DNA of 64,000 bases from assembly GCA_028710565.1 (NCBI GenBank), contig JAQTTV010000011.1, forward strand, positions 1 to 64,000, given 5' to 3'. Position numbers and translations under genes: made by a program. Positions 1,012 to 17,162 of this stretch are shown here, piece after piece. The stretch's first letter is position 1. Each line of letters begins with the position of its first letter. The notes under the pieces were generated by a model. The model was not told the origin of the DNA and did not search any database. It saw only the letters and a program-made list of their open reading frames with translations. This DNA is from Gallionella sp. Its GTDB lineage: Bacteria; Pseudomonadota; Gammaproteobacteria; Burkholderiales; Gallionellaceae.

Positions 1012-1725
1012 ATGGCAAATTACGAAGCGATATGCAAGCGTATTGATGAACTGTCCGACAAGGATCGTTTGGATATGCAGAACCTCTATCTTTCTCATTA
1101 TGCAGGATGCAGCAAAGCGCAGGTGGCAAGCGACTTGCAGGATAAAAGTGAAGCTATTCTGGTTTTTCTTGACCATGTGCTGGTAGGTTTTACCACGCTG
1201 AAGGTCTATGAACGTCAATGGGCGGGGCGCGATATCCGCATTATCTTTTCAGGTGACACCATCGTTGAACGTGCCCATTGGGGACAGCAGGCACTTGCGT
1301 TCACTTGGATTATGAAAATGGGGCAGCTGCAAAAAGAAAAACCAGATTTGCCTATGTACTGGTTTTTAATCGTCAAAGGTCATCGCACCTATAAATATCT
1401 GCCTGTTTTCGGTAAGTCATTTTATCCCCACTGGGCGATTGATCGCACCGATTTGAAGCCTTTGGCAGACACCCTTGCACAAGAAAAATTTGGGGCTGAT
1501 TACAATCTGGCAACAGGGGTGGTTGAGTTTCCAGAGTCTAAAGGGCATTTAATGCCCGACATTGCCTTACCCACTGAAGAAGAAAAATCCAAAGAGTCGG
1601 TACAGTTTTTTCTCGCCAAGAACCCGAATTACCTCAATGGACACGAACTTGTTTGTCTATGCGAAATCACGGAGCAGAACATGAAGCCATTGACCAAACG
1701 GATTTTCGCAAAAGGTCTCGCTTAA
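1012..1725 (+). CDS. GNAT-fold-like protein, first gene of the cluster
   Basis: A 237-aa protein read from ATG 1012 (MANYEAICKRID). An in-frame start 24 codons earlier is less likely because that extension does not look like the rest of the protein. The central part (SEAILVFLDHVLVGFTTLKV, then IRIIFSGDTIVERAHWGQQALAF) resembles the beta-hairpin and acyl-CoA-loop region of GNAT-type acyltransferases, with a conserved-looking MYWFLIVKGHRTYKYLPVF segment. There is no signal peptide. The stop lies 2 bp before the GH3 gene start, so the two are probably co-translated. An acyl-transfer role in the same pathway is inferred from context. The family assignment is weak; it could be a family with only a GNAT-like core. 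Confidence 0.6.
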   Translation: MANYEAICKRIDELSDKDRLDMQNLYLSHYAGCSKAQVASDLQDKSEAILVFLDHVLVGFTTLKVYERQWAGRDIRIIFSGDTIVERAHWGQQALAFTWIMKMGQLQKEKPDLPMYWFLIVKGHRTYKYLPVFGKSFYPHWAIDRTDLKPLADTLAQEKFGADYNLATGVVEFPESKGHLMPDIALPTEEEKSKESVQFFLAKNPNYLNGHELVCLCEITEQNMKPLTKRIFAKGLA

Positions 1726-1727
1726 CG

Positions 1728-3254
1728 ATGGCTTGGCAGACACTGCGCGCGCAAGGTGCTAGGCTCAAAGTCACCAATTCATTGCGTCAACGTCAGGAAA
1801 ACTGGTTGCAGGATTGTTTACAGCGCAACCAGCATTGCGCCTATCTGCAACAGTTTGGCGTGGAAGCGAGTTCATCATTGGCAGATTTTCGCCAACGGTT
1901 ACCGTTGGTCGATGATGAAATGCTGCGCCCTTGGATGCAGCGCATCGAACAGGGCGAGCAAAATGGGTTGTTCGAGGGCTTGCCGATTGCCTTTGAGCAA
2001 ACAAGCGGTACATCTGGTGGCAGCAAGCGAATTCCCTATACTGCGCACAGTCTGCTGGATTTTCAGCGTGCGCTGTTGCCTTGGCTGTCAGATGTGATTG
2101 CGGCATTCAAAATCACCTCTGGTTGCGCCTACTGGGCGATCAGTCCCGCCACACGCGCTGCGGCAAAGACGCCATCGGGTATCCCCATCGGTCTGCCTGA
2201 CGCGGCGTATTTGGGTGAGGCTGCTTTGCACGCATTTATTGACGTGTCTGCCGTGCCGCCTTGGGTGGGCGGAATCAAAGCGGTGCCAGAGTGGTCGGCG
2301 GCAACGCTGTACTACCTGTTGCGTCGCGTCGATTTGGTGCTGATTTCTGTCTGGAGTCCGACTTTCTTTTTGATGTTGTTGGATGCGTTAGTGCAGCAAT
2401 CTGCCGTGTTACGCAATTTACTGCAGCACGGTGGCGTGATCGCGGGGCAGATACTGCCGCCCGATACCGCCGCACTGCAAAGACTGGAATACTATCAACT
2501 TAGCCGTGATACGCGGATACTCTGGCCGAATCTCAAGTTGGTGAGTTGCTGGGCGGATGCTTCATCCCAACCGTATTTCCTCGCACTCCAGCAACGTTTG
2601 CCTCATGCCCAATTTCAACCCAAGGGACTCTTGGCGACGGAGGGCATTGCCACTGTACCTGATACGCAGGGCAAAACCGTATTAGCCGCCGACAGTGGAT
2701 TTTTTGAGTTTTTGGATCAACAAGGCGAGGCTTGTTTTGCTTGGGAGCTTCAGCAAGGCAAGGAATACGAATTAGTGATGACGACTTCAGGCGGGCTGTA
2801 TCGCTATCGCACGGGAGATGGGGTGCGTTGTGATGGTTATGCAGATGATCTCCCCGTGTTGCGTTTTGTGGGCAGGCAAGGGTTAACCTCCGATTTGGTG
2901 GGCGAAAAACTGACCGAGCCATTTGTGGCGGCGTGCCTGCATGACCTAGCAGGTTTTCGTATGCTAATACCCACCACACAGGGCAAGCCTCGATATGTGC
3001 TGATTTTGGATCAAGCTCACGACATCGAGCGTATTGCAGAGCGGGTCGAAAATCGGCTTTCAGAAAATCCACAATATGCTTATGCGCGCCGTATCGGTCA
3101 ACTGGATGCGTTGTCGGTGTTGCACGTTGAGCAGCCACTTGCGTCATGGATGCGCCGCAAATCCCAAAATGGCATCCGTTTGGGCGACATTAAAGTGCCG
3201 TGTTTGTGCGCGGAAACCGATTGGCTATCTACGTTTATGGAGCAAACAACATGA
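1728..3254 (+). CDS. GH3-family acyl-adenylating / amide-forming enzyme
   Basis: A 508-aa protein of the GH3 (auxin-responsive promoter) family, members of which activate a carboxylic acid with ATP and in plants pass it to an amine. The three ATP/AMP motifs are visible: QTSGTSGGSKRIPYT near residue 98, LLATEGIA in the middle and GGLYRYRTGDGVRC in the C-terminal half. ATG 1728 is chosen because it lies just after the upstream stop and avoids a 73-bp overlap. The 3' end overlaps the next gene by ATGA, indicating translational coupling. It is the only adenylating enzyme of the cluster, so it is the likely step that activates an acyl substrate. The substrate and acceptor are not visible in the sequence. 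Confidence 0.85.
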   Translation: MAWQTLRAQGARLKVTNSLRQRQENWLQDCLQRNQHCAYLQQFGVEASSSLADFRQRLPLVDDEMLRPWMQRIEQGEQNGLFEGLPIAFEQTSGTSGGSKRIPYTAHSLLDFQRALLPWLSDVIAAFKITSGCAYWAISPATRAAAKTPSGIPIGLPDAAYLGEAALHAFIDVSAVPPWVGGIKAVPEWSAATLYYLLRRVDLVLISVWSPTFFLMLLDALVQQSAVLRNLLQHGGVIAGQILPPDTAALQRLEYYQLSRDTRILWPNLKLVSCWADASSQPYFLALQQRLPHAQFQPKGLLATEGIATVPDTQGKTVLAADSGFFEFLDQQGEACFAWELQQGKEYELVMTTSGGLYRYRTGDGVRCDGYADDLPVLRFVGRQGLTSDLVGEKLTEPFVAACLHDLAGFRMLIPTTQGKPRYVLILDQAHDIERIAERVENRLSENPQYAYARRIGQLDALSVLHVEQPLASWMRRKSQNGIRLGDIKVPCLCAETDWLSTFMEQTT

Positions 3255-4648
3255 AAATTGTGCTCATTTCCCCGAAAGGCCCGCTATATCGCAGCAAAGG
3301 CGGAATCTTCAAAAAATCATTGCGCTACCAGCCGCTGACCCTCACCACGCTGGCGGCGTTAATTCCCGCAGAGTTGAATGCTGACATTGAATTGATAGAC
3401 GAAGGCATACAGGATGTTCCCGATAATCTACAGGCGGATTTAATCGGCATCACTGTCATCACAGGCACGGCAAAACGTAGCTACGAACTGGCAAAACAGT
3501 TCAGGGCGCGAGGGATCACGGTGGTGCTGGGTGGGCCGCATGTGACGCTGATGCCACAGGAAGCGGGCGAGCAGGCGGATGCCATTTGTATCGGCTATGC
3601 GGAAGAATCTTGGCCGCAATTGTTGCGCGATTTTACCAATGGCACGATGCAGCCGATTTATCGGCAAAGTCCAACGATGTCTTTGGAAAACATGCCGTTT
3701 GCGCGCCGCGACTTGTTTGATAAGCGGCATTTTTTGACCCAAGCGGTGTTCGAGGCGACGCGTTCCTGCGCCCATGACTGTGAATTCTGCGTTGCCCCAG
3801 CGGCGTGGGGGCGCAAACAATATCAAAAGCCTATAGATTGGGTGATTGAAGATATTCGTCGCACGGGGCAAAAGAAAATTATCTTCGTTGATTTGAATCT
3901 GGTGTCGGATGTTAAATACGCCAAAGAGCTGTTTACCCAATTGATTCCGTTGAAATTAAACTGGTTCGGACTTTCCACGGTATTGATTGCCCATGATCGT
4001 GAGTTGATGGAACTCATGGCACGCAGCGGTTGCAAAGGGCTGTTACTGGGATTGGAAACCGTGTCTCAGGACAGCTTGAAGGATGCCAAAAAGAGCTTTA
4101 ATGCGTCGGTGGGTTATAAATCGCTGATTGCGGATTTGCAACACTTGGGTATTTCGGTGCAAGGTTGCTTTGTGTTCGGGCTGGATCACGACACGCCCGA
4201 TGTATTTGATACCACGGCAGAATTTGCCATCGACGCAGGCGTAGATTTGCCGCGTTTTGCCGTGTTGACCCCTTTTCCTGGCACACCGTTGCACACCCGT
4301 CTTGAGGCAGAGGGACGCATCTTATCGCGGGATTGGGAATTGTACGACGGGCAGCATGTGGTGTTTCAGCCCAAAAACATGACGGTACTCCAGTTGCGGG
4401 ATGGCCATGAGCGGGCATGGAAAAAGACCTATGCGTGGTCATCCATCACGCGGCGATTGTGGAATGCCAAAAACTGCCAGCCCCTCGCGCTGAGTGCGAA
4501 TATCGGCTACCGCTTCTATGCCCATCATTTGCATCAATTTTATAACTGCGACTGGCAAATCGAGCCGCTGCTACCCAACCCCATCGCGGGTTTAGGGCAG
4601 ACGGTACATTTGTCCCGCGACTCCAAAAATAAGACGATATGCGGCTAA
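3251..4648 (+). CDS. B12-binding radical SAM enzyme 1
   Basis: A 465-aa protein with an N-terminal cobalamin-binding-type Rossmann domain (residues about 1-140, including VVLGGPHVTLMPQEA) and a radical SAM core. The 4Fe-4S ligands are Cys173, Cys177 and Cys180 in CAHDCEFC (CxxxCxxC). A GLLLGLETVSQDS segment resembles the strand that lines the SAM site in this class. The start ATG 3251 overlaps the GH3 stop by 4 bp. Family members (BchE-like, hopanoid HpnP-like and antibiotic methylases) perform methylation or C-C bond formation at unactivated carbons. It is the most divergent of the four copies here, for instance FEATRSC where the others have GRGC. Its exact reaction is unknown. Confidence 0.88.
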   Translation: MKIVLISPKGPLYRSKGGIFKKSLRYQPLTLTTLAALIPAELNADIELIDEGIQDVPDNLQADLIGITVITGTAKRSYELAKQFRARGITVVLGGPHVTLMPQEAGEQADAICIGYAEESWPQLLRDFTNGTMQPIYRQSPTMSLENMPFARRDLFDKRHFLTQAVFEATRSCAHDCEFCVAPAAWGRKQYQKPIDWVIEDIRRTGQKKIIFVDLNLVSDVKYAKELFTQLIPLKLNWFGLSTVLIAHDRELMELMARSGCKGLLLGLETVSQDSLKDAKKSFNASVGYKSLIADLQHLGISVQGCFVFGLDHDTPDVFDTTAEFAIDAGVDLPRFAVLTPFPGTPLHTRLEAEGRILSRDWELYDGQHVVFQPKNMTVLQLRDGHERAWKKTYAWSSITRRLWNAKNCQPLALSANIGYRFYAHHLHQFYNCDWQIEPLLPNPIAGLGQTVHLSRDSKNKTICG

Positions 4649-5997
4649 CCCTCATTCATCCCGCCATTGGGCATCGCAAGGGCGAAGGCTACATCCGCTC
4701 TTGGCAAATGGAACCCTTACCTGCTGCGGCGATTGCGGGACTCACGCCGAAAGACATCGACGTTCGCTTTTATGATGACCGCATGGAAAGTATTCCTTTC
4801 GACGAGCCGACCGATGCCGTGGCGATTTCATTGGAAACTTATACCGCCAAACGCGCTTATCAAATTGCCAGCGAATACCGCAAACGCCATATCCCCGTGA
4901 TTGTCGGCGGATTTCATGCGACCTTGATGCCCGACGAGGCTGCGCGTTATGCAGAAGCCGTGGTGGTGGGCGAGGCGGAGGATATTTGGGCGACGGTGAT
5001 TGACGATCTTCGCCATGGTAACTTGCAAAAACGCTATCAAAGCCTGACGCGCCCTGATTTGGCGCGCATTCATGCAGATCGCTCGATTTTCAAAAGCAAA
5101 CGCTATTTGCCGATTGCCTTGATCGAAACGGGACGTGGTTGTCGTTTTCCGTGTAGTTTCTGTGCGATACAGACCTTTTTTGAGCGCACCCATCGCACGC
5201 GCCCGATTGAAAATATCCTTGCTGAAATCCGACAACTGAAGGACATCACTAAATTATTCTTTTTTGTGGATGATAATTTTGCGGGCGACCTCCCCGCCGC
5301 CAAAGTGTTGCTCCAAGCACTCGCGCCGCTGAAGATACGTTGGATCACGCAAATGAGCATCAACGCTGCGCACGATGAGGCGTTTTTGGCAATGTTGGAA
5401 AAAAGTGGCTGCAAAGGTGTGTTGATCGGCTTTGAGAGTTTGGACGAAGGCAATTTGCGCGCCATGAAAAAGCGTTTCAACACCATGCAAGGCGGCTATG
5501 AAAAAGCCTTGCGCAACCTCAGAAAATACAACATCCGCGTGTATGCCACCTTTGTTTTTGGCTATGAAAACGACACCGTGGATTCATTCGATCAAGCAGT
5601 GGATTTTGCCATTGAGCAGCGTTTTTATATCGCCGCCTTCAACCATCTCACGCCCTTCCCAGGCACGGCACTCTACACGCAACTGCAACAGGAACAGCGG
5701 CTGAAATATCCCGCATGGTGGTTAGACGACCGCTACCGCTACAACGATTTGCCCTTCTTCCCAAAACAACTCGCGCCCGAAGACGTGACGCGCTTGTGTG
5801 TGGCGGCTCGCCGACGATTTTATGCGTGGGACAGCATCCTTAAACGCGGTTTGGAAAAAACCAACCGCAGCGATTTTTTTATGTTCCGAAACTTCTTTCC
5901 AATCAATATGATGCACCGATCCGATGTGAGCAACCGCAACGGTTATCCGCTGGGCGATGAAAATTGGCAGGGTGAGCTATTGGAGGCGGTGCGGTGA
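4639..5997 (+). CDS. B12-binding radical SAM enzyme 2
   Basis: A 452-aa protein with the same two-domain plan as its upstream neighbour. The B12-type domain (VIVGGFHATLMPDEAARYA) precedes a radical SAM core with Cys168, Cys172 and Cys175 in GRGCRFPCSFC. FFFVDDNFAGD and GVLIGFESLDEGN are shared almost word for word with copies 3 and 4, so these three are close paralogues. The start ATG 4639 lies 10 bp inside the preceding gene. It probably acts on the same scaffold as the other radical SAM enzymes. A cobalamin-dependent role is inferred from the domain; no classical DxHxxG cobalamin-ligand motif was seen. Confidence 0.87.
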   Translation: MRLTLIHPAIGHRKGEGYIRSWQMEPLPAAAIAGLTPKDIDVRFYDDRMESIPFDEPTDAVAISLETYTAKRAYQIASEYRKRHIPVIVGGFHATLMPDEAARYAEAVVVGEAEDIWATVIDDLRHGNLQKRYQSLTRPDLARIHADRSIFKSKRYLPIALIETGRGCRFPCSFCAIQTFFERTHRTRPIENILAEIRQLKDITKLFFFVDDNFAGDLPAAKVLLQALAPLKIRWITQMSINAAHDEAFLAMLEKSGCKGVLIGFESLDEGNLRAMKKRFNTMQGGYEKALRNLRKYNIRVYATFVFGYENDTVDSFDQAVDFAIEQRFYIAAFNHLTPFPGTALYTQLQQEQRLKYPAWWLDDRYRYNDLPFFPKQLAPEDVTRLCVAARRRFYAWDSILKRGLEKTNRSDFFMFRNFFPINMMHRSDVSNRNGYPLGDENWQGELLEAVR

Positions 5998-7130
5998 AGC
6001 CTATCACGCCCGACCCGCAAATTGTCTATCGCGCAGGCGGAGTGGTGTTTCGTCCTGCGGGGTCGGCGGATGACGCGGCATTGCGGCGTTGTTTGCGTGA
6101 TAACGACATGGATGCGTGGATTAAGCTGGCTTTTGAGCGCGAGCCGTGTTTTTTCGACGGTGAAAATTTGATGGGCGCGTCGCTTGCCGTGATTGCCGAG
6201 GCGGAAAAATTGCCGCATGATTTTGTCGGGATGTACACCTGCGCTCAGCTTCCTGTGCATCTGAATGGGCAAACCGCCGTTGCGGGTTATTTGGGCGGAT
6301 TGCGCGTCAACCCATCCTATCGGCGCAAGATACGCATCTTGAGGGATGGCTTTGCCTCGATTCCTGTTTTAACCCGCCCATGGAGGCAGCCGAACGCTTG
6401 GTTTACCAGCATTGGGCAAGAAAATAATCAGGCGCGCCGCGTGTTGGAAGCAGGTCTCAAACACCTGCCGCGTTACCTGTTGGCGGGGGAGATGGAAACG
6501 CTGGTTTTCCCGACGCGACTAGAGCAACCGACGGGATTGCTGCAAGCGGCTACACGGGAAGATATACCCGCGTTGAGCGATTTTTTTAATCAGCAGGCAC
6601 AAGCGTTCCAATTTGCGCCCAGACTGGACGAGGCTTGGTTGCGATCATTGGATGGCACGCACGGACTTTGCTTGGCGGATTTTTGGCTACTCAAGGACGG
6701 CGATGTGCTGCACGGTTGTTTGGCAATTTGGGATCAGCGCAGGTTCAAGCAAACCGTGGTGCGCTCGTACCGTTTTCCGCTGAATAAACTCCGCGTCGCG
6801 TACAACCTATTGGCAGGCATCCGAGGCAAGCTCAAATTACCCGCACCCAATCAACAAATTGAGCAGGTTTTTTTGTCTTTTGTCGCGTTGAGCGAATCCG
6901 CGCAGGACAATGCGGTGGCGGTGGTCAAAGAAGGGCTGAGGCTGGCGGCGCAAAAAGGCGCGTTGGTTGGTACGCTGGGCTTGTCGGCGCAAAGCCCACT
7001 GAACGCCCGCCTGAAAGCGGTGCTCCCTCACGAAAGCTACCGCACACGCATTGAAACCGTGAGTTGGGCAAATGCAGAAAGCCTTGCGCTCTATGGTCGC
7101 CCCGTACAGCCAGAGGTTGCCCTGTTATGA
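5994..7130 (+). CDS. GNAT-family acyltransferase-like protein
   Basis: A 378-aa protein read from GTG 5994, which overlaps the stop of radical SAM 2 (GTGA). The N-terminal half carries a GNAT-like core: a hairpin (DFVGMYTCAQLPVHL) followed by the acyl-CoA loop region YLGGLRVNPSYRRKIRI. A second, less conserved alpha/beta half follows, so the protein may be a GNAT with a degenerate second GNAT domain. The 3' end TTATGA includes a start codon at 7127 that would have coupled it to a radical SAM gene, but that gene is now truncated here and restarts at 8696. The substrate is unknown. An N- or O-acyltransfer step is inferred. Confidence 0.72.
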   Translation: MKPITPDPQIVYRAGGVVFRPAGSADDAALRRCLRDNDMDAWIKLAFEREPCFFDGENLMGASLAVIAEAEKLPHDFVGMYTCAQLPVHLNGQTAVAGYLGGLRVNPSYRRKIRILRDGFASIPVLTRPWRQPNAWFTSIGQENNQARRVLEAGLKHLPRYLLAGEMETLVFPTRLEQPTGLLQAATREDIPALSDFFNQQAQAFQFAPRLDEAWLRSLDGTHGLCLADFWLLKDGDVLHGCLAIWDQRRFKQTVVRSYRFPLNKLRVAYNLLAGIRGKLKLPAPNQQIEQVFLSFVALSESAQDNAVAVVKEGLRLAAQKGALVGTLGLSAQSPLNARLKAVLPHESYRTRIETVSWANAESLALYGRPVQPEVALL

Positions 7131-7158
7131 AGCTGGAGAAAACTACCCTGTTACGCCT
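7047..7158 (+). repeat. Duplicated operon junction, copy 1 (GNAT 3' end / radical SAM 5' end)
   Basis: These 112 bp match 8616-8727 at a constant offset of 1569 bp, with about 12 substitutions. Both copies span the end of a GNAT reading frame, the overlapping ATGA and the first ten codons of a radical SAM gene (MKLEK.TLLR). Confidence 0.85.
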
Positions 7159-7186
7159 CTCTTCGGCGTACATTTCACAACCGTAG
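7127..7186 (+). pseudogene. Truncated start of a radical SAM gene
   Basis: ATG 7127 begins MKLEKTTLLR, matching the first residues of the gene at 8696 (MKLEKITLLR). The frame then diverges completely and stops at 7184-7186. It is the 5' stump of a radical SAM gene left at the junction with inserted DNA. Confidence 0.7.
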
Positions 7187-7332
7187 AACGAATCGCGAGA
7201 GAGGCGAAACGATGAACGAGACAACGAAAATTCAACCCCCGAAAATTCAAACAAGTGCCGTGCTGCGCATTGGGTTTGATGGGCGTGGTGAGTGGCGGGG
7301 ATGCGCAATGCTACGATGCTAGACCTGACCCC

Positions 7333-8331
7333 ATGGTTTCTTTGATGTTTTTTGCCATTCTTGCTTTTGCTACGCCAGCACTGGCTGCAAGTGCTGAACC
7401 ACCTATCTGGTGCGATGTGCTGCTTTATGGCCCGAGCATAACAATTCAACCAGATCTGCGACCGAGTTTTTCCTGCAAAAAAGCCAAGACTATTGTTGAG
7501 CAGCTAATCTGCAGCGACCGCAATCTGGCAAATTTAGACCAGCGCATGTGGGATATCTATACCGCAGCTCGAACTTTGCTAACCGATGAAGAAAAGATGA
7601 GCGTGCTAAAGACCCAGCGCGAATGGCTGGCAGGGCATGATCAGGCTTGTGGTATTACCCCAAAGGGTGAATATGTCTACGGTGCCGCTGAGTGCCTGAT
7701 TAAGCGTTACCTCATGCGTACAGAGAAGCTTCAGGCAATGCTTACTCGCGGCAATGTGATTCGTGAGCTGGGCGGCTCAGAGCCGTGGACAGAGAATACG
7801 GAGCGTTACAGGATGTCGGAAAACCGCGTCACCCTGCTGCAGAGGTGTGTAGGAGAAGAATTGGAGGAACAGGTAAATTCGTGTTGTGCGCCTGGTACGG
7901 AGACAATAGAAGAAACGGCATCCACCATCACGGCTTATGTAATCAACGGCAAAAGGTTCCTGCTTTATAACGGAAAGTATAGTCAGCGTTTTAACATACC
8001 TCGTTATGCGGATTGTAACGACGAGGTCAACGAGAAGGGTGAGCTTGTTGGCTGTCCTGATAATACAACCTATGCCAGCTGTGCTGCGCTATTTGCTGAA
8101 ACCGAGCTTGGAAATGGTGATTTTGCTTTTGCTGGACATCGCTGGAATTTTCCAGTCACAATGGATGAATTGCTGATTGGGAAATCGAAGGAGCAGCAGA
8201 CAGACAAGGAATTTGCCAGTGAATTGCATTCCAAGTTGCTTGAGGGAGAAATAGTCACACTGGTAACTTCCAAAGGCAAGATTAGCCGTTTCCAATGGGA
8301 TGCAGGGAAGAAGGTGTATGTGCGGCATTAA
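7333..8331 (+). CDS. Exported protein with LprI/DUF1311-like domain
   Basis: A 332-aa protein read from ATG 7333, which gives a clean signal peptide (MVSLMFFAILAFATPALA). The mature N-terminal part has the LprI-like (DUF1311) pattern: SCKKAKTIVEQLICSD, then NLANLDQRMWDIY and KTQREWLAGHDQACG. Paired cysteines suggest disulfides and a periplasmic location. The C-terminal half is not recognised and has many Cys (CVGEELEEQVNSCC). It lies inside the segment that interrupts the biosynthetic operon, and its AT-richer codon use differs from the flanking genes. It is therefore likely to be inserted cargo and not part of the pathway. Confidence 0.7.
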   Translation: MVSLMFFAILAFATPALAASAEPPIWCDVLLYGPSITIQPDLRPSFSCKKAKTIVEQLICSDRNLANLDQRMWDIYTAARTLLTDEEKMSVLKTQREWLAGHDQACGITPKGEYVYGAAECLIKRYLMRTEKLQAMLTRGNVIRELGGSEPWTENTERYRMSENRVTLLQRCVGEELEEQVNSCCAPGTETIEETASTITAYVINGKRFLLYNGKYSQRFNIPRYADCNDEVNEKGELVGCPDNTTYASCAALFAETELGNGDFAFAGHRWNFPVTMDELLIGKSKEQQTDKEFASELHSKLLEGEIVTLVTSKGKISRFQWDAGKKVYVRH

Positions 8332-8344
8332 ATAACACGGAAGG

Positions 8345-8363
8345 GGGCAGGTCTTTCGTTATC
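8345..8363. repeat. REP-like sequence, left arm
   Basis: GGGCAGGTCTTTCGTTATC is the exact reverse complement of 8499-8517. The two 19-bp arms face each other across the RAYT remnant, the arrangement expected of REP sequences flanking a REP-associated transposase. Confidence 0.75.
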
Positions 8364-8390
8364 GCATTTGTGCATTAAAATAACCGCACG

Positions 8391-8500
8391 ATGACCAGAC
8401 CTTTACGACTTAAACTTGCAGCCGCGCTCTATCACGTCACTCCACGGGGGATGGACATGAGAATATCTATCTTTCTGATGAAGAAACTGAGGGAATATGA
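8391..8500 (+). pseudogene. REP-associated tyrosine transposase (RAYT) remnant
   Basis: ATG 8391 starts MTRPLRLKLAAALYHVTPRG, the hallmark N-terminus of RAYT/Y1 transposases (usually RPLRLEFPGALYHVTSRGN). Shortly after this the continuation is found in another frame as DGHENIYLSDEETEG, so there is a frameshift. The coding sequence ends at the right REP arm. The catalytic HUH and Tyr region is gone. Confidence 0.75.
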
Positions 8501-8517
8501 TAACGAAAGACCTGCCC
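8499..8517. repeat. REP-like sequence, right arm
   Basis: GATAACGAAAGACCTGCCC is the perfect inverted partner of 8345-8363. Together the arms bound a 173-bp element that now contains only the first part of a RAYT gene. Confidence 0.75.
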
Positions 8518-8615
8518 ATTTTGCTGCAAGGCAGCGTAACGCGCGCCCACAAGCGGGAGCAAGGACAAACGTGAAAGGCAATATCCAACCCTTGGGCGCG
8601 GTTCAACGCCATACG

Positions 8616-10009: not shown

Positions 10010-10013
10010 GCCG

Positions 10014-11345
10014 ATGAAAATAACCTTTATCAAACCCAATATCGGTCGCCGCGAGCATAGCTTGTACGTCGATCATGGTCGGATGGAACCTTTAATGCTG
10101 GGTGTGTTGGCGGGGCTGACTCCACCTGATGTGGAGGTGACGCTGTTTGATGATCGCATGGAGTCGATTCCGTATGACGAGCAGACGGACTTGGTGGCGA
10201 TCACGGTGGAAACCTATACCGCCAGACGAGCGTATGAAATTGCCGCCGAATATCGGCAGCGTGGCGTGCCCGTCATCATGGGCGGTATGCACCCGACGCT
10301 CTTGCCCGACGAAACCGCGTTGTATGCCGACAGTGTTTTTACAGGCGATGCGGAAACGATGTGGGCGACGGTGGTGGCGGATGCGCAAAAAGGACAACTC
10401 AAGCGTCGTTATCACGGCGAACCTGGGATTGCCCAAGCGGGCGGATTGTTGCCAAGACGGGATATTTTCAAGGGCAAAGGCTATTTGCCGATGACCTTGA
10501 TGCAGTATTCACGTGGCTGTCGTTTTGCCTGCAATTTTTGCGCGGTGAGCGAATACTTTGACCGCAAACATTACATCCGTCGCATCGACGAAGTGCTGAA
10601 GGAAATCGACCATCATGGGCACAAATTCATCTTTTTTGTGGATGACAACATCGCCTCGAACAAGGCTGCCCTGAAAGACCTTTGTCGTGAATTGATTCCG
10701 CTGCGGGTGAAGTGGTTTAGCCAAGCCAGCTTGGATATTACCCGCGATGCCGAGTTGATGCGGCTGATGACCGACAGTGGCTGCGTGGGCAATGTGATGG
10801 GCTTTGAAACCATTACGCGTGACAGTCTGCGGGAGTCCAAAAAATCGCCCAATCTGCCTGGTTTTTCCAATTATCAGCAGGAGGTCGATATTTTGCGGGA
10901 ATACGGGATGCAAACTTGGGCGGCGTTCACCTTAGGCTATGACCATGACACGCGTGACTCCATCCTCGATACGCTAGATTTTGCGCTGACCCATCGCTTC
11001 ACCTTTGCCGCGTTCAACATTCTGATGCCTTACCCCAATACGCCGCTATACCGCAAATTGGAGACCGAAGGGCGTTTGCTTTATGACGGAAAATGGTGGT
11101 TACACCCCGACTATCGCTTTAATCAAGCCGCCTTTGTGCCAAGCAGGATGTCTGCCGATGAGCTGACCGAGGTGTGCCATGCAGCCAGAAAGCGTTTCAA
11201 TAGCGTGCCTGCATTGCTGCATCGTTTCTCCGATATGAAAACCAATATGCGTACCTTGTGGAGCGTGGTGTCCTACTGGAAATACACGATGTTGTTCAGA
11301 AACGAGGTGTATCAAAAACATCGCATGCGGTTTGGGTTGAAATGA
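10014..11345 (+). CDS. B12-binding radical SAM enzyme 4
   Basis: A 443-aa protein close to copies 2 and 3. The B12-type domain has VIMGGMHPTLLPDETALYA; the cluster ligands are Cys169, Cys173 and Cys176 in SRGCRFACNFC. FFVDDNIASNKAALKDLC and GNVMGFETITRDS follow. The C-terminal region has the family's WWLHPDYRFNQAAFVPSRMS segment, also recognisable in copies 2 and 3. The stop overlaps the membrane-protein gene by ATGA. Four such enzymes in one operon suggest several successive radical modifications, or different specificities that arose by duplication. Confidence 0.88.
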   Translation: MKITFIKPNIGRREHSLYVDHGRMEPLMLGVLAGLTPPDVEVTLFDDRMESIPYDEQTDLVAITVETYTARRAYEIAAEYRQRGVPVIMGGMHPTLLPDETALYADSVFTGDAETMWATVVADAQKGQLKRRYHGEPGIAQAGGLLPRRDIFKGKGYLPMTLMQYSRGCRFACNFCAVSEYFDRKHYIRRIDEVLKEIDHHGHKFIFFVDDNIASNKAALKDLCRELIPLRVKWFSQASLDITRDAELMRLMTDSGCVGNVMGFETITRDSLRESKKSPNLPGFSNYQQEVDILREYGMQTWAAFTLGYDHDTRDSILDTLDFALTHRFTFAAFNILMPYPNTPLYRKLETEGRLLYDGKWWLHPDYRFNQAAFVPSRMSADELTEVCHAARKRFNSVPALLHRFSDMKTNMRTLWSVVSYWKYTMLFRNEVYQKHRMRFGLK

Positions 11346-12007
11346 AAAAAGCGATTTTTGAAATTTATCAATATGTTGCGCCAGCGGTGCTGACCCCGCT
11401 TTCTTTTTTTCTGTGGTGGCGGACATACGACGGCAATATATGGCTGACGCTGATAGCTTGGCTTACGCCCATACTTTATGCCTATATTGTGCCTGGCGTG
11501 GGGACGAATATCTTAAAAGTGTGGGAGTTCGATACGCGCTTCCGCTTGGGGCGGTTTCGCCCCCACCACGGATTTGTATTCGGCAGTGCCACGGCAACCT
11601 TAGCTTGGCTGTGCCACGGAGGGTTCGCAAACAGCGTGTTTGATCTGTTTCAAACCAGCTTGGTATTGGCTTCCGTGCTGGGGTTTTGGAATGTACTTTA
11701 CGATGTCAAAGCCATTGAGTCTGGCATCCTGCGGGTCTATAACCAACCTTGGGCGGACAATAAAGGGGCGGAGGCGATCACGCTGGATTATGCCCCTTGG
11801 TTCTTTGCAGGATTTGGGGCAATCTATGGCTTGTGTATAGCGGGGGCGGAATGGTTGGTGGCACGGGGTTTGCTAAATGCGACTGTATTTTGCTGTTTAT
11901 TTCCTGTACTACTACTCACCGCCATCGCCTTTCCTGTATGGGGCTATCGCCGCCGATCCAATCGGGTACACGGTCATACTGGCTGTCATCCCATCGCCAA
12001 GGAGTGA
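11342..12007 (+). CDS. Polytopic membrane protein of the cluster
   Basis: A 221-aa protein with about six predicted hydrophobic segments, starting at ATG 11342 inside the ATGA overlap. The segment NVLYDVKAIESG weakly resembles an NxxxDxxx(D/E) prenyl-transferase aspartate motif. A UbiA-type function is possible but not supported by length (UbiA proteins are nearer 290 aa) or by a second Asp-rich motif. A HisHis pair (RFRPHHGF) sits before the third hydrophobic segment. Its position between radical SAM enzymes and a desaturase suggests membrane-bound processing of a lipid-like intermediate. I do not recognise the family. Confidence 0.6.
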   Translation: MKKAIFEIYQYVAPAVLTPLSFFLWWRTYDGNIWLTLIAWLTPILYAYIVPGVGTNILKVWEFDTRFRLGRFRPHHGFVFGSATATLAWLCHGGFANSVFDLFQTSLVLASVLGFWNVLYDVKAIESGILRVYNQPWADNKGAEAITLDYAPWFFAGFGAIYGLCIAGAEWLVARGLLNATVFCCLFPVLLLTAIAFPVWGYRRRSNRVHGHTGCHPIAKE

Positions 12008-12012
12008 GAATC

Positions 12013-12942
12013 TTGCCATTGAACGTGCTTATTTTATTGCTGTCTTTTGTCGCCACGTGGGGCTGTTTGTGGGTCGCCAGTCATTTGAGTCTAGGCTTTG
12101 CGCTGCTTGCTGTTTGGCTGTTTAGTCTCATCGCCAACACGCCGTTTGCCTTGATGCACGAAGCAGTACACGGGGTTGGCTGTGCGTCGCCCCGTCGCAA
12201 CGAATGGTTGGGCATCGTGTGTGGCTGGGCGTTTCCGACCTCGTTCTCTATGCAGCGGTTGGCGCATGAAGGACATCATCAGCGCAATCGCACCGATCAG
12301 GAACTGTATGACTACTATTTGCCGCACCAGTCTCGGCTGATGCGCAATCTTTGGCTTTACACGGGCAATCTATTGGGCTTGTACTGGTGGTCGGTGGTAT
12401 TGGGAAATGTGCTTTACCTGCTGGCACCTTGGGCATATCGCTCGCGCTTTTTTGTTGAACGCTATGCCCCCGCGTTGGGTTTTGAAAGCTATATCGCAGA
12501 CTTGGCGAAACTGCCCGTGTTACGCGTGTGGAGCGAGATTGCCTTAGCGTTTGCGTATCAAGCCCTGATTTTTTATAGCCTTGATTTGAATGTATTCTGG
12601 ACGTTGGCGTGTTATGGCGCATTCGCGTTGCACTGGTCAGTGTTGCAATACGCCGATCATGCGTGGAGTGCACGTGAGGTGCGCAGTGGCGCGTGGAATC
12701 TCAAGGTCTTGCCGCCTTTTCGCTGGATCGCACTTAATTACCATTATCATTTAGCACATCATCAATATCCCAATGTGCCGTGGTACAAATTACCCAGCTT
12801 GGTTGATCCCTCGGTGCGCCAGCCGTCTTTTTGGCGGGTTTACTTTAGTCTCTGGAAAGGCGTCCGTCCCGCACCACCCATGGGTGCACCCGCCGATTTA
12901 GCCTTCCTTTTTCCTGCTGCGGAACAGGAATCGCACCGATGA
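12013..12942 (+). CDS. Membrane fatty-acid desaturase / hydroxylase
   Basis: A 309-aa integral membrane diiron enzyme of the fatty-acid desaturase superfamily. All three histidine boxes are present: HEAVH near residue 43, HEGHH near residue 84 and the C-terminal HYHLAHHQYP. Hydrophobic segments lie between them. The start is taken as TTG 12013 because AAGGAG (11999-12004) sits 8 bp upstream; the frame stays open further upstream, but that region overlaps the preceding gene. The stop overlaps the P450 start by ATGA. It probably introduces a double bond or hydroxyl into an acyl or isoprenoid chain. Confidence 0.85.
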   Translation: MPLNVLILLLSFVATWGCLWVASHLSLGFALLAVWLFSLIANTPFALMHEAVHGVGCASPRRNEWLGIVCGWAFPTSFSMQRLAHEGHHQRNRTDQELYDYYLPHQSRLMRNLWLYTGNLLGLYWWSVVLGNVLYLLAPWAYRSRFFVERYAPALGFESYIADLAKLPVLRVWSEIALAFAYQALIFYSLDLNVFWTLACYGAFALHWSVLQYADHAWSAREVRSGAWNLKVLPPFRWIALNYHYHLAHHQYPNVPWYKLPSLVDPSVRQPSFWRVYFSLWKGVRPAPPMGAPADLAFLFPAAEQESHR

Positions 12943-14309
12943 TTGCCGACCGTCCTTCCTTCCAGCCGCCCGCACCACAGCCCCCCACCACCTTGCCGAC
13001 TTGGCAATTGTTGCGGGCAGCCTTGTTCAATCCGCTGAATGTGTGGTGTCAAAAACATTTTGAGGAGTGGGTGGTGGTGGAGCGCACCCTGCTTGGTACG
13101 CGCTTGGTGGTGAGCGACCCCGCGCACATCAAATGGATACTGGTCGATCACGCCGATAATTATGTGCGTGACAGTATGCAGCAGCGCATCGTGCTGCGCA
13201 TGACGGGGCGCAGCGTGTTTTCGGCAGAGGGGCGCAAGTGGCAAGTTCAACGTCAAGCCTTGGCACCGCTTTTTTCCGCGAAAACCGTGGCGACCTACTT
13301 GCCCAATATGCTTGCCGCTGCAGAAGCTGCGGTGCAGCGGTTGCGTACCATAGGAACTGAGATTGACCTTGGGCGTGAGATGGCGGCATTAACAGTCGAT
13401 GTGCTGGGGCGCACGATTTTTACGCATGGATTAGGCGAGCCGCCGACGATGATAGCCGAGAGTGTTCGACGGTTTGCCGACATCAACGGCATGGTTGAAC
13501 TGGGCGATTTACTCGGATTGCCTGCGTGGTTGCCAGGGATGAGGCGCATGTTGGGGTGGCGTACGACCGCCTTAGTGGAACGACGAGCGAAACGCGTCAT
13601 CGCCGAGGCAAAAAGGGCAGGCTCGTCGTCGCCAGACGATCTTTTTGCGCGACTTTTTGCGGCGCAAGATGCCGAAACGGGGCAGTCGTTAAGTACCCAC
13701 GAGATTGAAGGCAATGTCTCTACGCTGATTGGTGCGGGTTCGGATACGGTTGCGGTCGCATTGACTTGGTCTATTTTTTTGCTGTCACAGACACCGCATG
13801 TACGCGAAGCAGTCGAAGCGGAAGTGGATACGCATCTGACCAGCGAGATATTCACGGCGGACACGCTCAAAAAATTGGTTTGGACGCGTGCCGTGGTTGA
13901 GGAGAGTATGCGCTTGTACCCGCCCGCCCCGATGATTGGGCGCATGGCTCGCAGCGCAGACAAACTAGGGGACGAGCACGTGCCAGCGGGAGCGTCCCTT
14001 TTGATTTCGCCTTGGGTGTTGCACCGACATGCCAAGCTGTGGCATGACCCTCATGCCTTTATGCCTGAACGCTTTTTGCCTGAGCAACGGGCGCAAATTC
14101 CACGCTTTGCTTATCTGCCCTTCGGCGCAGGGCCTCGTGTCTGTTTAGGAATGGGATTCGCGATGCAGGAAGCGGTGGTGATTTTGGCGATGCTGATGAA
14201 ACACTTGCGTTTTGAACGCGCCGATCATCACCCCATCGAACTGCGCCAGTGCATCACCTTGCAAACGAAGACCCCGCTGCGTATGCACATTCAGTCTCGC
14301 TCAACATGA
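12939..14309 (+). CDS. Cytochrome P450
   Basis: A 456-aa soluble P450. The I-helix oxygen-binding motif is GAGSDTVA, the ExxR motif is ESMR, and the haem-binding loop LPFGAGPRVCLGMG has the thiolate Cys near residue 402. The arrangement resembles the CYP102-like/CYP110-like class that oxidises fatty acids or terpenes, but the substrate cannot be read from sequence. No fused reductase is present, so it needs external redox partners, and none are encoded nearby. It overlaps both neighbours by 4 bp, so it is firmly inside the operon. Confidence 0.93.
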   Translation: MIADRPSFQPPAPQPPTTLPTWQLLRAALFNPLNVWCQKHFEEWVVVERTLLGTRLVVSDPAHIKWILVDHADNYVRDSMQQRIVLRMTGRSVFSAEGRKWQVQRQALAPLFSAKTVATYLPNMLAAAEAAVQRLRTIGTEIDLGREMAALTVDVLGRTIFTHGLGEPPTMIAESVRRFADINGMVELGDLLGLPAWLPGMRRMLGWRTTALVERRAKRVIAEAKRAGSSSPDDLFARLFAAQDAETGQSLSTHEIEGNVSTLIGAGSDTVAVALTWSIFLLSQTPHVREAVEAEVDTHLTSEIFTADTLKKLVWTRAVVEESMRLYPPAPMIGRMARSADKLGDEHVPAGASLLISPWVLHRHAKLWHDPHAFMPERFLPEQRAQIPRFAYLPFGAGPRVCLGMGFAMQEAVVILAMLMKHLRFERADHHPIELRQCITLQTKTPLRMHIQSRST

Positions 14310-14926
14310 ATACAGCGTATTTTTCTTGGCCCGATGCGGCGCGTTGGCGTGCTTTTCTCAAGTTTATGGCACTGTTCTACGTATTTTTCTTTCCGCTTTA
14401 TTTTGGCGCGGGATATGTTGCGGCACACGCCCCGCAAACGTTTGGATTCTATGGTGCATGGGAGCGCAATATCCCACTGGTTCCCTGGATGATTTGGCCG
14501 TATTTATCGCTGTACTCGGTATTTTTGTTGCCGCTGTTTCACCTAAGTGCCAAACAAATCGACATACTGGCACGTCAGTCCACGGCGACGTTGCTCATCG
14601 CGGGTGGTATTTTGCTACTGTTGCCAGCGCACTTAGGGTTTGCGCCAGCCAAAGTGGTGGGGCTATATCAACCGCTGTTTGATTTGCTCACTCAAGTGGA
14701 CACGCCACACAACCTTGTGCCGTCGCTGCATGTCGCATTTGCTGCGTTGATTCTGCTAGGCTGTGCTGAACGCGGCCCCAAGTTTTGGGCTTGGGGATAT
14801 GGGGGCTGGTTGGTGCTGATGTCTGCCTCCACCGTGCTGGTGCATCAACATCACCTGCTTGATGTCATCAGCGGACTGGGACTGGCTATTATCATGCGGC
14901 GGATTTTCCCGCTCGGCTCTTCCTGA
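14306..14926 (+). CDS. PAP2-family membrane phosphatase / transferase
   Basis: A 206-aa protein read from ATG 14306 (4-bp overlap with the P450 stop). It has several membrane segments and the two catalytic PAP2 motifs VPSLHVAFAAL and HQHHLLDVISG. The first canonical motif (KxxxxxxRP) is not evident, which places it nearer the AUR1/IPC-synthase-like PAP2 branch than classical lipid phosphatases. It may dephosphorylate a lipid phosphate or transfer a head group. It is the last gene of the plus-strand operon, and its 3' end overlaps that of the convergent gene by 35 bp. Confidence 0.82.
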   Translation: MNTAYFSWPDAARWRAFLKFMALFYVFFFPLYFGAGYVAAHAPQTFGFYGAWERNIPLVPWMIWPYLSLYSVFLLPLFHLSAKQIDILARQSTATLLIAGGILLLLPAHLGFAPAKVVGLYQPLFDLLTQVDTPHNLVPSLHVAFAALILLGCAERGPKFWAWGYGGWLVLMSASTVLVHQHHLLDVISGLGLAIIMRRIFPLGSS

Positions 14927-15500
14927 CAAACCAGCCTGCGACGAAGCCCAGCATCAAACCACCTGCGGCACCCGCCACGCCGACCCAGACCACGCTTTTT
15001 TCGATAGCACTCAAGACGGGGTTGTCGAGAAAGTTCGTGCCCGTATGAATAGCCAGTAATTTCCATTCGCCGTTGTCTTTGATGGAAACCGCTGTCCAGC
15101 GTCCATTCATGTCGAAACTGCGTCCGTCCGCCATCTCATAATGCTCTTTGGTCGAACCCTTATTGACCGCAAACGTCCCTTGATAGATTTGCGACAGACC
15201 ATCAGGCTCCGCCGCAATCGACACGGTTTTCATGCGCAAGGTGTCGCGGGTGTACAGGTTCTCAAAATACGCTTTGAGTTTATCCATCTCCGTGAAGTTA
15301 TCCTGCGTCACCAAGGTGGTCATAAACGGTTGATGCAATAGTTTTTGCAGGGCAACGTAATCACGGCTGTTCGCGGCGGCAGCGAGTTCGACTTTCAACT
15401 TGCGCAGGGCGGCTTGATCGGTTTGTTCCCCAGAATTGTCTGCAAAAACGGGCGCAGCAAGCAACAGGGATAAGGCGAGGGTGGCAAAGAGACGGGACAT
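14892..15500 (-). CDS. Exported, C-terminally anchored NTF2/SnoaL-like protein
   Basis: A 202-aa protein with a signal peptide (MSRLFATLALSLLLAAPVFA) and an NTF2-like fold of the DUF4440/SnoaL type (AAANSRDYVALQKLLHQPF, then RWTAVSIKDNGEWKLLAIH). A C-terminal transmembrane helix (VGVAGAAGGLMLGFVAGWFV) is followed by a basic tail. It should sit in the inner membrane with the NTF2 domain in the periplasm. NTF2-like folds may be catalytic or only ligand-binding; no catalytic residues can be assigned. It is the last gene of a minus-strand set that converges on the main operon. Confidence 0.72.
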   Translation of the reverse strand: MSRLFATLALSLLLAAPVFADNSGEQTDQAALRKLKVELAAAANSRDYVALQKLLHQPFMTTLVTQDNFTEMDKLKAYFENLYTRDTLRMKTVSIAAEPDGLSQIYQGTFAVNKGSTKEHYEMADGRSFDMNGRWTAVSIKDNGEWKLLAIHTGTNFLDNPVLSAIEKSVVWVGVAGAAGGLMLGFVAGWFVRKSRAGKSAA

Positions 15501-15541
15501 TAGTATTTCTCCTATTCAGGTTAAAGGTGTTGAAAAAATTT

Positions 15542-16210
15542 TCAGGGCGTTTGGGGATGCACTTTGCGGCGTGGCCATTCTTCAAAGGGGTGGACACGGC
15601 ACCCCGTGGGCAGCATCTTGCCTGCACGCAACACGGCACCAGGGCCGAGTTGCGCCGCACCGCCGAGTATCGCCTCGGACTCGACGATGGGGGCGGCTGC
15701 CAGCACCAGCCAACGCCCCGTTTCATCTCGTTGTACCAAATGCCCCGCCAGTATGCTCTTCATGCCTAACACCGCGCCGCGCTCAACGCGAACAGCATGA
15801 CGGTCGGTAATCAGCACCCTAGGGGCAACATAGGCGTAAGGACTGAGCTGCCCGCCCCACAATCCAATCCACAGCGCGTACAGCCCTGGCACCAATCGTA
15901 ATAATTCCTCCAGCCACGGCAAACGGTTGAACAGTATTTGCCACTGGGTCAATGCCCACCACACCCGATACGCACGCATGTCTTGGGTCAATCGACCTTC
16001 GGGACGCCCCCAAATGGTGATGATGAGTCGGGCAGCGAGTGGTGGTAGCAGGTAAATCCAAACGGCAAGTATACCCACGCAACCGCTGGTCGTTTCGCTC
16101 ATGCCCACGGAAATGCCCAAGCCTGAGATCAAATGCAGCAATGGCAAACCATTCAGCCATAAGGAAAAAGCACTAGGTTTTTCCAGATTATACGATTCAA
16201 CGTCGGTCAT
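15542..16210 (-). CDS. Membrane protein with beta-helix-like C-terminus
   Basis: A 222-aa protein. Residues about 18-70 contain hydrophobic segments (LLHLISGLGISVG, CVGILAVWIYLLPPLAARL) and another lies near WLEELLRLVPGLYALWIG. The C-terminal part (SPYAYVAPRVLITDR through IVESEAILGGAAQLGPGA) has the short V/I-x-x-G-A repeats of hexapeptide or other beta-helix acyltransferases. The start overlaps the end of the diiron oxygenase gene by 14 bp, so the two are co-transcribed. An O-acyltransferase role is possible but only inferred. Confidence 0.55.
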   Translation of the reverse strand: MTDVESYNLEKPSAFSLWLNGLPLLHLISGLGISVGMSETTSGCVGILAVWIYLLPPLAARLIITIWGRPEGRLTQDMRAYRVWWALTQWQILFNRLPWLEELLRLVPGLYALWIGLWGGQLSPYAYVAPRVLITDRHAVRVERGAVLGMKSILAGHLVQRDETGRWLVLAAAPIVESEAILGGAAQLGPGAVLRAGKMLPTGCRVHPFEEWPRRKVHPQTP

Positions 16211-17162
16211 AACCCCACATCCTTTCGCCCAGATTCGCCAATTCTGGGGTGTGGTCGAATACTTGGAAGGTGACGGGCATCATGCGGCGGTTAAACAAGC
16301 TTTCTTGGAACGCTCGGTTTTTCTCCAACGCCAGAATTGCCTGAATCATCTCTTCCTTGCGGCTGGATAATTCGGGCATTTCGCGCACCAACTGGTGAAT
16401 GACCATGACCCCAGAACCGCTGCGCGTGGGACGGGTAATGCCGCGCAACATGGCTTGGAACAACCACGCATTCACGCGTTTTGCCTTGCCTGCTGATCCC
16501 ATGCACTGTTCAATCATCCTGCCGTCAATATGCAGGTGACGCGCTTCGTCTTTCATGTGTTCACGATGTACCGAAACGAAGGCGAGGTCTAGCGCACCCA
16601 GTGTTTCCGTTTCGGGATGGCGGATCATCTCTCGCGCCATCGCCATAGACGACTCTTCCATCGCCATCAAATACCACAGCGCGAAAGCGTAGCGTCCCGC
16701 CAGTGCGCCAACCATCCAGAACATGGCTTGTGTCCATGCGGGCAGGCGAGAAAACAGGCGATCCTTGCCAAGCGGATAAAGGTCGGGACGGCAAGCGCGA
16801 TTCAGTGCGGCAAAGGCAGCAAAATGCTTGCTTTCCTCTTCCATCATCGTGGTCATCGCGTGAACGAAAGCCGCATCGGCAACAATTTGAGGCAGACGAA
16901 GCAGCGGGGTAAGCAAGCGTTCCACCAAATCCGCTTCCAACATCATAATGTACTCATTGATACGCAAGCCGAATAGCTGGTTGTAGCGCAGTCGCTGCTC
17001 GAAATTCAGCGTGGTGTAGATAGGTGTGTAGTAAAGCTGGGTATAGCCTTCTGGCACAAATGGGCGGCGCAAATCAATATCCAACGGTAGGGTCGTACGC
17101 GTGCAGTGAGCAGGATTCGCGGACAGTCGATTGATATGTTCTGCGGCAAGCCATCGTTTCAT
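16197..17162 (-). CDS. AurF-like non-haem diiron oxygenase
   Basis: A 321-aa helical protein. The seven metal ligands expected for the AurF (p-aminobenzoate N-oxygenase) family can all be assigned: Glu in NEYIMMLEADL, ExxH in MMEEESKHF, Glu in YLMAMEESS, and HxxxExxH in REHMKDEARHLH. Known members oxidise amines to nitro or hydroxylamine groups or hydroxylate C-H bonds. ATG 17162 (MKRWLAAEHINRL) is preferred over an in-frame ATG at 17267 because the extension is not family-like. It heads the minus-strand set that faces the radical SAM/P450 operon and may supply an N- or C-oxidation step. Confidence 0.8.
   Translation of the reverse strand: MKRWLAAEHINRLSANPAHCTRTTLPLDIDLRRPFVPEGYTQLYYTPIYTTLNFEQRLRYNQLFGLRINEYIMMLEADLVERLLTPLLRLPQIVADAAFVHAMTTMMEEESKHFAAFAALNRACRPDLYPLGKDRLFSRLPAWTQAMFWMVGALAGRYAFALWYLMAMEESSMAMAREMIRHPETETLGALDLAFVSVHREHMKDEARHLHIDGRMIEQCMGSAGKAKRVNAWLFQAMLRGITRPTRSGSGVMVIHQLVREMPELSSRKEEMIQAILALEKNRAFQESLFNRRMMPVTFQVFDHTPELANLGERMWGYDRR

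Follow-up and report, generated by a model that had tools for sequence, protein, structure and literature searches.

What does a bacterium make with a GH3-type amide ligase, two acyltransferase-like proteins and four B12-binding radical S-adenosylmethionine (SAM) enzymes that are encoded side by side? The question is raised by positions 1012–17162 of a 64,000-nucleotide stretch of contig JAQTTV010000011.1 (hereafter the window), which belongs to the genome of an iron-oxidising Gallionella, 3.27 Mb in size and 99.99% complete. An earlier note, made from the sequence alone, had read this locus as a candidate undescribed biosynthetic cluster whose product would be a modified lipid, a lipid amide or an acyl-amino compound. 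Our analysis confirms a biosynthetic cluster that includes a GH3 amide ligase and shows that the core of the cluster family is GNAT1-GH3-GNAT2; the most interesting feature is an unusually clear alternation, among the relatives, between a radical SAM module and a Rieske oxygenase. The conserved core upholds the notion of a cluster, but not that of one fixed pathway, as most of the other genes are accessory.

The conserved core

With an alignment of GNAT1 as query, we scanned 84,980 species genomes and obtained 144 confirmed relatives; the loci counted below are the best 80 of these 144. Within ~9–10 kb around GNAT1, GH3 was found in 69/80, GNAT2 in 62/80 and the desaturase in 43/80 loci (phmmer; thresholds of 100, 25 and 60 bits, respectively). 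The proposal of a cluster hinged on its genes being kept together elsewhere, and in these counts they are. Among the 57 loci with at least 7 kb on both sides, the numbers were 55 for GH3, 50 for GNAT2, 35 for the desaturase, 16 for RS1/RS2 and 35 for the Rieske oxygenase.

GH3 (1728–3254, + strand) encodes an acyl-adenylate amide ligase-like protein with three domains above cut-off (PF03321, PF23571 and PF23572; 124.5, 62.1 and 36.3 bits). It carries the motifs TSGTS, YRY and RTGD, with conserved residues across 69 aligned rows, and domains and nucleotide motifs together place it among the GH3 acyl-acid amide synthetases. Plant GH3 proteins form amides from acids via acyl-AMP, and the structural relatives retrieved by a profile search are plant GH3 enzymes. 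The nearest named family is the lyso-ornithine lipid (N-acyl-ornithine) synthetase OlsH (NCBIfam NF052613), which uses a fatty acid and ornithine; with 37.3 bits, the protein falls far short of that family's cut-off of 620.

The two acyltransferase-like proteins were placed by their predicted structures. GNAT1 (1012–1725, + strand), a core marker of the cluster family, has no Pfam or NCBIfam match; among 48 family members Acetyltransf_1 was found in two and Acetyltransf_9 in one, all weakly, and the family profile found no match among PDB sequences at E 1. Its AlphaFold2 model (pLDDT 95.3) is predicted to have the fold of the GNAT superfamily, with AAC(2')-Ia as top Foldseek match (E 1.1e-6, TMq 0.42). 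For GNAT2 (5994–7130, + strand, GTG start), the model (pLDDT 92.8) predicts a tandem GNAT fold over the full length (TMq ~0.6, ~400 alignment columns), and the top 50 Foldseek rows comprised 48 N-myristoyltransferases and two rows of the tandem GNAT 7q3a (TMq 0.53–0.63), with 7–12% sequence identity in the fold alignments. We regard GNAT2 as a candidate long-chain N-acyltransferase with a predicted N-myristoyltransferase-like fold. Three points weigh against this assignment: the best single Foldseek match is 7q3a, a tandem GNAT; tandem-GNAT folds occur in other enzymes too; and, searched against the PDB at E 0.1, the GNAT2 sequence profile retrieves only three small GNAT sequences (E 0.002–0.07) and no N-myristoyltransferase.

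Where does the family occur? By record names, its members spread over 12 phyla (Pseudomonadota, Cyanobacteriota, Planctomycetota, Verrucomicrobiota, Bacteroidota, Myxococcota, Gemmatimonadota, Omnitrophota, Elusimicrobiota, Chloroflexota, Spirochaetota and Nitrospirota), many being metagenome-assembled genomes (MAGs) and some of the names doubtful. Three MAGs with doubtful names (L055, L063 and L078), labelled Bordetella parapertussis, Akkermansia muciniphila and Nealsonbacteria, have genomes of 6.4, 5.8 and 9.1 Mb, the last far too big for its label. The closest match is a second Gallionella (G023), which holds every cluster gene at 89–100% identity and a 102-aa open reading frame (ORF) of an insertion, described below, at 82%. 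Because the same set recurs across phyla and in this second Gallionella, the gene set is not a chance assembly. The family is nonetheless a rare one: any GH3 match was found in 6/150 relatives' genomes (own included), RS2 in a single one of 300 genomes drawn from the order, namely the own genome, and GNAT1 in 6/398 genomes of an even draw from the phylum (again own included), with GH3 adjoining GNAT1 in 6/6; one of those six, G533, shares coordinates with locus L058. An IncF plasmid of Citrobacter portucalensis (NZ_CP134684) carries GNAT1-GH3-RS1-RS2-GNAT2-RS3-RS4-PAP2 in the same order as the window, followed by DUF4440, a fifth radical SAM gene and a desaturase, and its RS1 is 72% identical to that of the window. 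In E. coli genomes, no DNA closely matching this Citrobacter cluster was found. The patchy distribution together with the existence of a plasmid copy indicates horizontal spread.

Further conserved neighbours are mainly families limited to particular lineages. They include a ~495-aa membrane protein (22 loci, almost all of Rieske type), an ABC-transporter-like family (10 loci) and a sensor-kinase-like family (12 loci), in a scan that was noisy owing to shadow ORFs. A distant version in an Acinetobacter record (L099, 9132–16811) reads GNAT1-GH3-outer-membrane efflux protein-GNAT2 and is preceded by HlyD-type and major facilitator superfamily genes, a setting in which the product may be exported in that lineage.

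Radical SAM or Rieske

All four radical SAM proteins (RS1, 3251–4648; RS2, 4639–5997; RS3, 8696–10009; RS4, 10014–11345; all + strand) have B12-binding and radical SAM domains above the Pfam cut-offs (PF02310 and PF04055 in RS1) and a CxxxCxxC motif, and thus are members of the superfamily. Only RS1 and RS2 make up a near-core module, RS3 and RS4 being accessory. Orthologues of RS1 are 42–74% identical (18 aligned rows) and those of RS2 43–67% (20 aligned rows). The substrates of B12 radical SAM enzymes are modified at unactivated carbons. In NCBIfam, RS1 and RS2 match HpnJ best (80–94 bits against a cut-off of 578) and RS3 and RS4 match BchE best (93–96 bits against 481), and none of the four comes near the equivalog cut-offs of HpnJ, HpnR, BchE or the ladderane-type TIGR04072. 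Because the nearest named families are this far under their cut-offs, the reaction type is not fixed. The likeness to the hopanoid enzymes HpnJ and HpnR lies in B12 radical SAM chemistry on lipids; beyond the scores, the difference is that the Pfam matches of the window cluster include no hopanoid cyclase. In the Citrobacter plasmid cluster (L097), the fifth B12 radical SAM gene (23854–25167) adjoins a desaturase. In phages, a single distant RS1 match was seen, in two records of one phage.

What takes the place of RS1-RS2 elsewhere? In many relatives, neighbour clustering and Pfam reveal a Rieske oxygenase (Rieske + VanA_C). RS1/RS2 are present in 21/80 loci and the core Rieske, defined here as scoring at least 150 bits, in 46/80, with both in 0/80 (Fisher 9e-11). 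We extended the comparison to the whole genomes of 50 hand-picked cases, 21 from RS loci and 29 from loci with the Rieske oxygenase or a fusion protein introduced below: RS2 (E 1e-60) was found in 21/21 RS and 0/29 Rieske genomes, the core Rieske (E 1e-30) in 0/21 and 29/29, where the positives follow from the selection and the zeros are the result. Neither the window genome nor the second Gallionella has a core Rieske match at E 1e-5, and the same query does match in Rieske genomes. For this sample, the mutual exclusion of RS module and core Rieske is a strong statement.

Several observations nonetheless count against it or narrow it. In the Fisher value, related loci are counted as though they were independent, and the 50 genomes were picked for one module or the other and are mostly drafts of unstated completeness. 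Different, low-scoring Rieske proteins (26–59 bits) occur in six RS loci (L054, L057, L058, L073, L077 and L090); all 20 low-scoring Rieske proteins of at least 250 aa are nearer to one another than to the core Rieske and form a second family, found with both types and uncounted here, so that it is the core Rieske alone to which the exclusion applies. In addition, 5/57 full-flank loci have neither module, two of these five also lacking GH3 and GNAT2. Distant members without RS or Rieske module likewise consist of GNAT1-GH3, with or without GNAT2, and three genomes drawn via GNAT1 (G616, G619 and G486; loci L113–L115) have a locus without RS2 or Rieske, G486 having a 114-bit Rieske protein elsewhere. 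Since some members carry neither module, the small core can exist alone.

Why would a radical SAM pair and a Rieske oxygenase alternate? We tentatively suggest, with a little less than even confidence, an amide-lipid pathway family of ~12 phyla in which the RS pair and the Rieske oxygenase are the O2-independent and O2-dependent solutions to the same carbon oxidation, swapped together with the N-myristoyltransferase-like acyltransferase. Chlorophyll synthesis offers a likeness: there, the B12 radical SAM enzyme BchE and the O2-using AcsF do one step in different lineages, and BchE is also the best match of RS3 and RS4. The cases differ in that this match is far under its cut-off, that the AcsF side is a diiron protein and not a Rieske oxygenase, and that a common step is here something we infer. 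Given the alternation of RS1-RS2 with an oxygenase, this pair would more likely carry out an oxidation, a ring closure or a desaturation than a plain methylation.

The oxygen explanation itself is a hypothesis. A split of the two types by O2 lifestyle, judged by COX1-family oxidases, proved weak (18/21 RS against 29/29 Rieske genomes), and the window itself encodes members of O2-using enzyme families (desaturase, P450 and AurF), both of which speak against a simple link to oxygen. NorB-like proteins may also match the COX1 family. Because 18/21 RS genomes have such an oxidase, the RS type does not mean an anaerobe; in the three RS genomes without COX1, the loci are without desaturase, P450, AurF and Rieske (n=3).

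Alternatively, RS-type and Rieske-type clusters might share the GNAT1-GH3-GNAT2 scaffold and make different end products through different reactions, the exclusion stemming from fixed product families. We consider this somewhat unlikely, even though two proteins, RS1-RS2, stand opposite a single Rieske oxygenase that is often accompanied by a ~930-aa protein in which an NQR2/RnfD-type membrane domain is fused to FG-GAP repeats and UnbV_ASPIC (22/80 loci, including L055, L067 and L045; 0/21 RS loci), and even though GNAT2 tracks the RS module, as though its substrate had changed too. Desaturase, DUF4440, PAP2, an α/β-hydrolase-like gene and the secondary Rieske are found with both types, and GH3 backbones cross between them, as would be expected less of separate product families. 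The fusion of the relatives, not present in the window, bears some resemblance to the enediyne cassette proteins UnbU and UnbV, although the open-access papers searched yielded nothing useful on an enediyne link; it differs in that no enediyne polyketide synthase (PKS) was among the scanned proteins and that the fusion is missing from the 21 RS-type loci.

Returning to the proposed swap of modules in one pathway, how could it have come about? Two RS loci, those of the window and of Accumulibacter L018, fall in the GNAT1 tree on the Rieske-dominated side of a branch starred for its support (100/99), and the RS/Rieske states need at least four changes (five in the quick tree). A single clade of RS rows is rejected for GH3 (p-AU 6.8e-6, quick tree) and borderline for GNAT1 (0.054). 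In the GNAT2 tree, all 22 RS rows lie on one side, with one change, and a starred branch (98/83) joins the window to RS loci of Accumulibacter, Novosphingobium, Phyllobacteriaceae, Zetaproteobacteria, Myxococcota and Chromatiales, although in the GNAT1 tree the loci of Myxococcota and Chromatiales belong to the opposite side, the one dominated by RS. In 18/19 RS1 loci, and in both overall gene orders, RS1-RS2 immediately precedes GNAT2; in the exception, L083, a second RS2-like gene lies between. Most simply, a backbone of the Rieske type would have acquired RS1-RS2-GNAT2 as one block. Against this, the GNAT2 clade of RS rows is weakly supported (54/48), which leaves other histories possible, and the number of independent RS/Rieske pairs is too small for a sign test to reach significance.

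A putative N-acyl lipid

What, then, might the product be? We give an even chance to the view that this is a biosynthetic cluster which spreads horizontally and whose product is a modified N-acyl lipid, the probable type being an N-acyl amino acid or amine lipid. Such a compound would fit a gene set that encodes an amide ligase and two acyltransferases together with a PAP2-like protein and a member of the fatty-acid desaturase family. In the order of steps that we envisage, GH3 would turn a carboxylic acid into an acyl-AMP and join it to an amine; GNAT2, with its predicted N-myristoyltransferase-like fold, and GNAT1 would place further acyl groups onto nitrogen; RS1 and RS2 would alter an unactivated carbon of the scaffold without O2, a task that would fall to the Rieske oxygenase in relatives; RS3, RS4, the desaturase, P450 and the AurF-like protein may add more C-H or N oxidations; and the PAP2_3-like, DUF4440 and hexapeptide proteins might act at the membrane, completing the lipid or transporting it. 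The product type put forward in the earlier note remains the best guess, given the conservation of the gene set, the predicted fold of GNAT2 and a distant kinship to OlsH, and is to be qualified in that the pathway is variable and its RS module alternates with a Rieske oxygenase.

The nearest described counterpart is OlsH/OlsI of the ornithine-lipid pathway of Singulisphaera acidiphila, in which synthesis of an N-acyl lipid begins with a bacterial amide synthetase of the GH3 family that has an α/β-hydrolase partner (PMC12493201). Common to both is the GH3-family enzyme; some related loci, though not the window, also have an α/β-hydrolase-like protein, assigned from conserved Ser-Lys-Gly, Asp and His and without a Pfam match. 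The differences are that the GH3 protein of the window scores 37 bits against 620, which weighs against the N-acyl lipid too, that no α/β-hydrolase gene was seen in the window cluster, and that the terms radical SAM, Rieske and desaturase are absent from the main text of that report (PMC12493201).

OlsH, an enzyme of ornithine-lipid synthesis (PMC12493201), being the nearest named GH3, and the accessory proteins being of membrane type, one might think of a structural membrane aminolipid resembling ornithine lipids instead of a secreted specialised metabolite. We hold this to be unlikely: the patchy distribution (GH3 6/150, RS2 1/300, GNAT1 6/398), the plasmid location in Citrobacter and the efflux-type genes around the distant Acinetobacter version all suit a specialised metabolite. 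Still another product is conceivable, a non-lipid one: GH3 would couple an amine with an acid that is aromatic or small, and acetylation would be the role of the GNATs. The solved GH3 relatives are indeed plant enzymes acting on small acids, and the best fold matches of GNAT1 are aminoglycoside acetyltransferases, but the predicted N-myristoyltransferase-like fold of GNAT2 and the recurrence in the cluster of a PAP2-like protein and of a protein from the fatty-acid desaturase family make this quite improbable.

Is the cluster new? As proposed earlier, PKS, nonribosomal peptide synthetase (NRPS) and terpene cyclase are absent: a Pfam scan detected no ketosynthase, condensation or cyclase domain in the window cluster, and none in ten scanned neighbour proteins from relatives. 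We found no description of such a cluster in the open-access literature, where subscription papers and preprints are mostly missing, and regard the novelty of the family as provisional. The Pbo cluster of Pseudomonas syringae was considered and rejected, as it is described as NRPS/PKS-based and the text mentions neither GH3 nor Rieske (PMC8473136). The family is broad and apparently unnamed, and current cluster finders may miss clusters of this kind, devoid of PKS, NRPS and terpene genes. If the N-acyl lipid reading is true, the product would represent a novel class of lipids, or of lipid-like metabolites, in bacteria, and the alternation of RS and Rieske modules represents a natural test of whether radical SAM and Rieske chemistry can be interchanged in one pathway. 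Because the Rieske form is present in named Pseudomonas and Paraburkholderia strains, among them Pseudomonas kilonensis DSM 13647 with locus L038, the product can be sought directly.

Tailoring genes, an insertion and the rest of the window

The coordinates bear out all genes and overlaps named in the earlier note: overlaps of 4 bp join GH3/RS1, RS2/GNAT2, RS4/MEM, desaturase/P450 and P450/PAP2, and one of 10 bp joins RS1/RS2. Missing from it were GNAT1, DUF4440, the hexapeptide-like gene and the insertion between GNAT2 and RS3. Its view that all catalytic motifs are intact holds for GH3, the RS proteins, the desaturase, P450 and the AurF ligands, and only in part for the PAP2_3-like membrane protein (14306–14926, + strand), which resembles a phosphatase or head-group transferase: PF14378 scores 21 bits, under the cut-off of 27, and the first motif was not found, whereas PSLH, H182 and D186 are kept in at least 90% of 18 rows.

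Upstream of this gene lie MEM (11342–12007, + strand), a membrane protein without Pfam match; the desaturase (12013–12942, + strand, TTG start) of the membrane fatty-acid desaturase/hydroxylase family (PF00487, 79 bits), with the His boxes HEAVH, HEGHH and HLAHH; and the cytochrome P450 (12939–14309, + strand; PF00067, 236 bits), with AGSDT, ESMR and FGAGPRVCLG. Three genes face them on the – strand. DUF4440 (SnoaL-like; 14892–15500) has PF14534 above cut-off and, by eye, an apparent signal peptide and a C-terminal transmembrane segment. The hexapeptide-type protein (15542–16210) is membrane-anchored and β-helix transferase-like; it has no Pfam match of its own, and its homologue in L083 has a Hexapep match below cut-off and acetyltransferase and Pls-PosA matches far below theirs. 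The AurF-like diiron oxygenase (16197–17162; PF11583, 40 bits against a cut-off of 29.6) keeps seven likely ligands (E76, E110, H113, E169/170, H202, E206 and H209) in at least 90% of 8 rows, residues taken to be metal ligands from the AurF pattern. By sequence, this places it in the AurF N-oxygenase family; phmmer found no solved relative at E 0.1.

How constant is this equipment? In whole-locus tblastn searches (E 1e-5, n=80), GNAT2 was found in 56 loci, the desaturase in 45, RS2 in 24, DUF4440 in 21, RS1 in 20, PAP2 in 18, RS3 in 8 (one a weak 63-bit match), RS4 in 8 (one a weak 52-bit match), AurF and the hexapeptide-like gene in 7 each, P450 in 4 and MEM in 3 (including the second Gallionella), counts that take in weak cross-matches between RS paralogues and the near-copy L017. 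RS3, RS4, P450, AurF, PAP2 and the desaturase are variable tailoring genes, and MEM, too, counts as accessory.

The insertion (7044–8726) separates RS3 from GNAT2 and is also present in the second Gallionella. It is bounded by a 114-nt direct repeat, whose left copy (7044–7157) joins the end of GNAT2 to the beginning of RS3 and whose right copy (8613–8726), 1569 nt away, is 89% identical to it. Between the copies lie a gene with an LprI domain (7255–8331, + strand, start uncertain; PF07007, 29.3 bits against a cut-off of 22), which stands outside the pathway and among the 80 loci recurs in the second Gallionella alone, an inverted repeat (8345–8368/8494–8517) and a short ORF, which begins like a REP-associated transposase and has the GNAT2 tail, in a second copy, at its end. 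Because GNAT2 and RS3 overlap by 4 bp in the Citrobacter plasmid, the insertion looks secondary.

Elsewhere in the window, a tyrosine integrase (30562–31788) lies beside a tRNA-Arg (31985–32061), along with a Mob_Pre-domain protein (25392–26525) and a type IIG restriction-methylation protein (27314–30430); 25392–32061 is likely an integrated element near the cluster. Its left end was not found, the only 20-nt repeat of the tRNA-Arg lying in a second tRNA-Arg. A 1309-aa protein (17721–21650) has the PIN domain of the TPR-GreAB-C-PIN system (PF20698) and no PADLOC match, and a 328-aa protein (33754–34740) gives weak matches to Pycsar nucleotide cyclases (best 47.5 bits). Finally, a 2087-aa ORF followed by a ShlB/FhaC-type transporter gene (58746–60449) occupies 52483–60449, and the two are likely a two-partner secretion pair.

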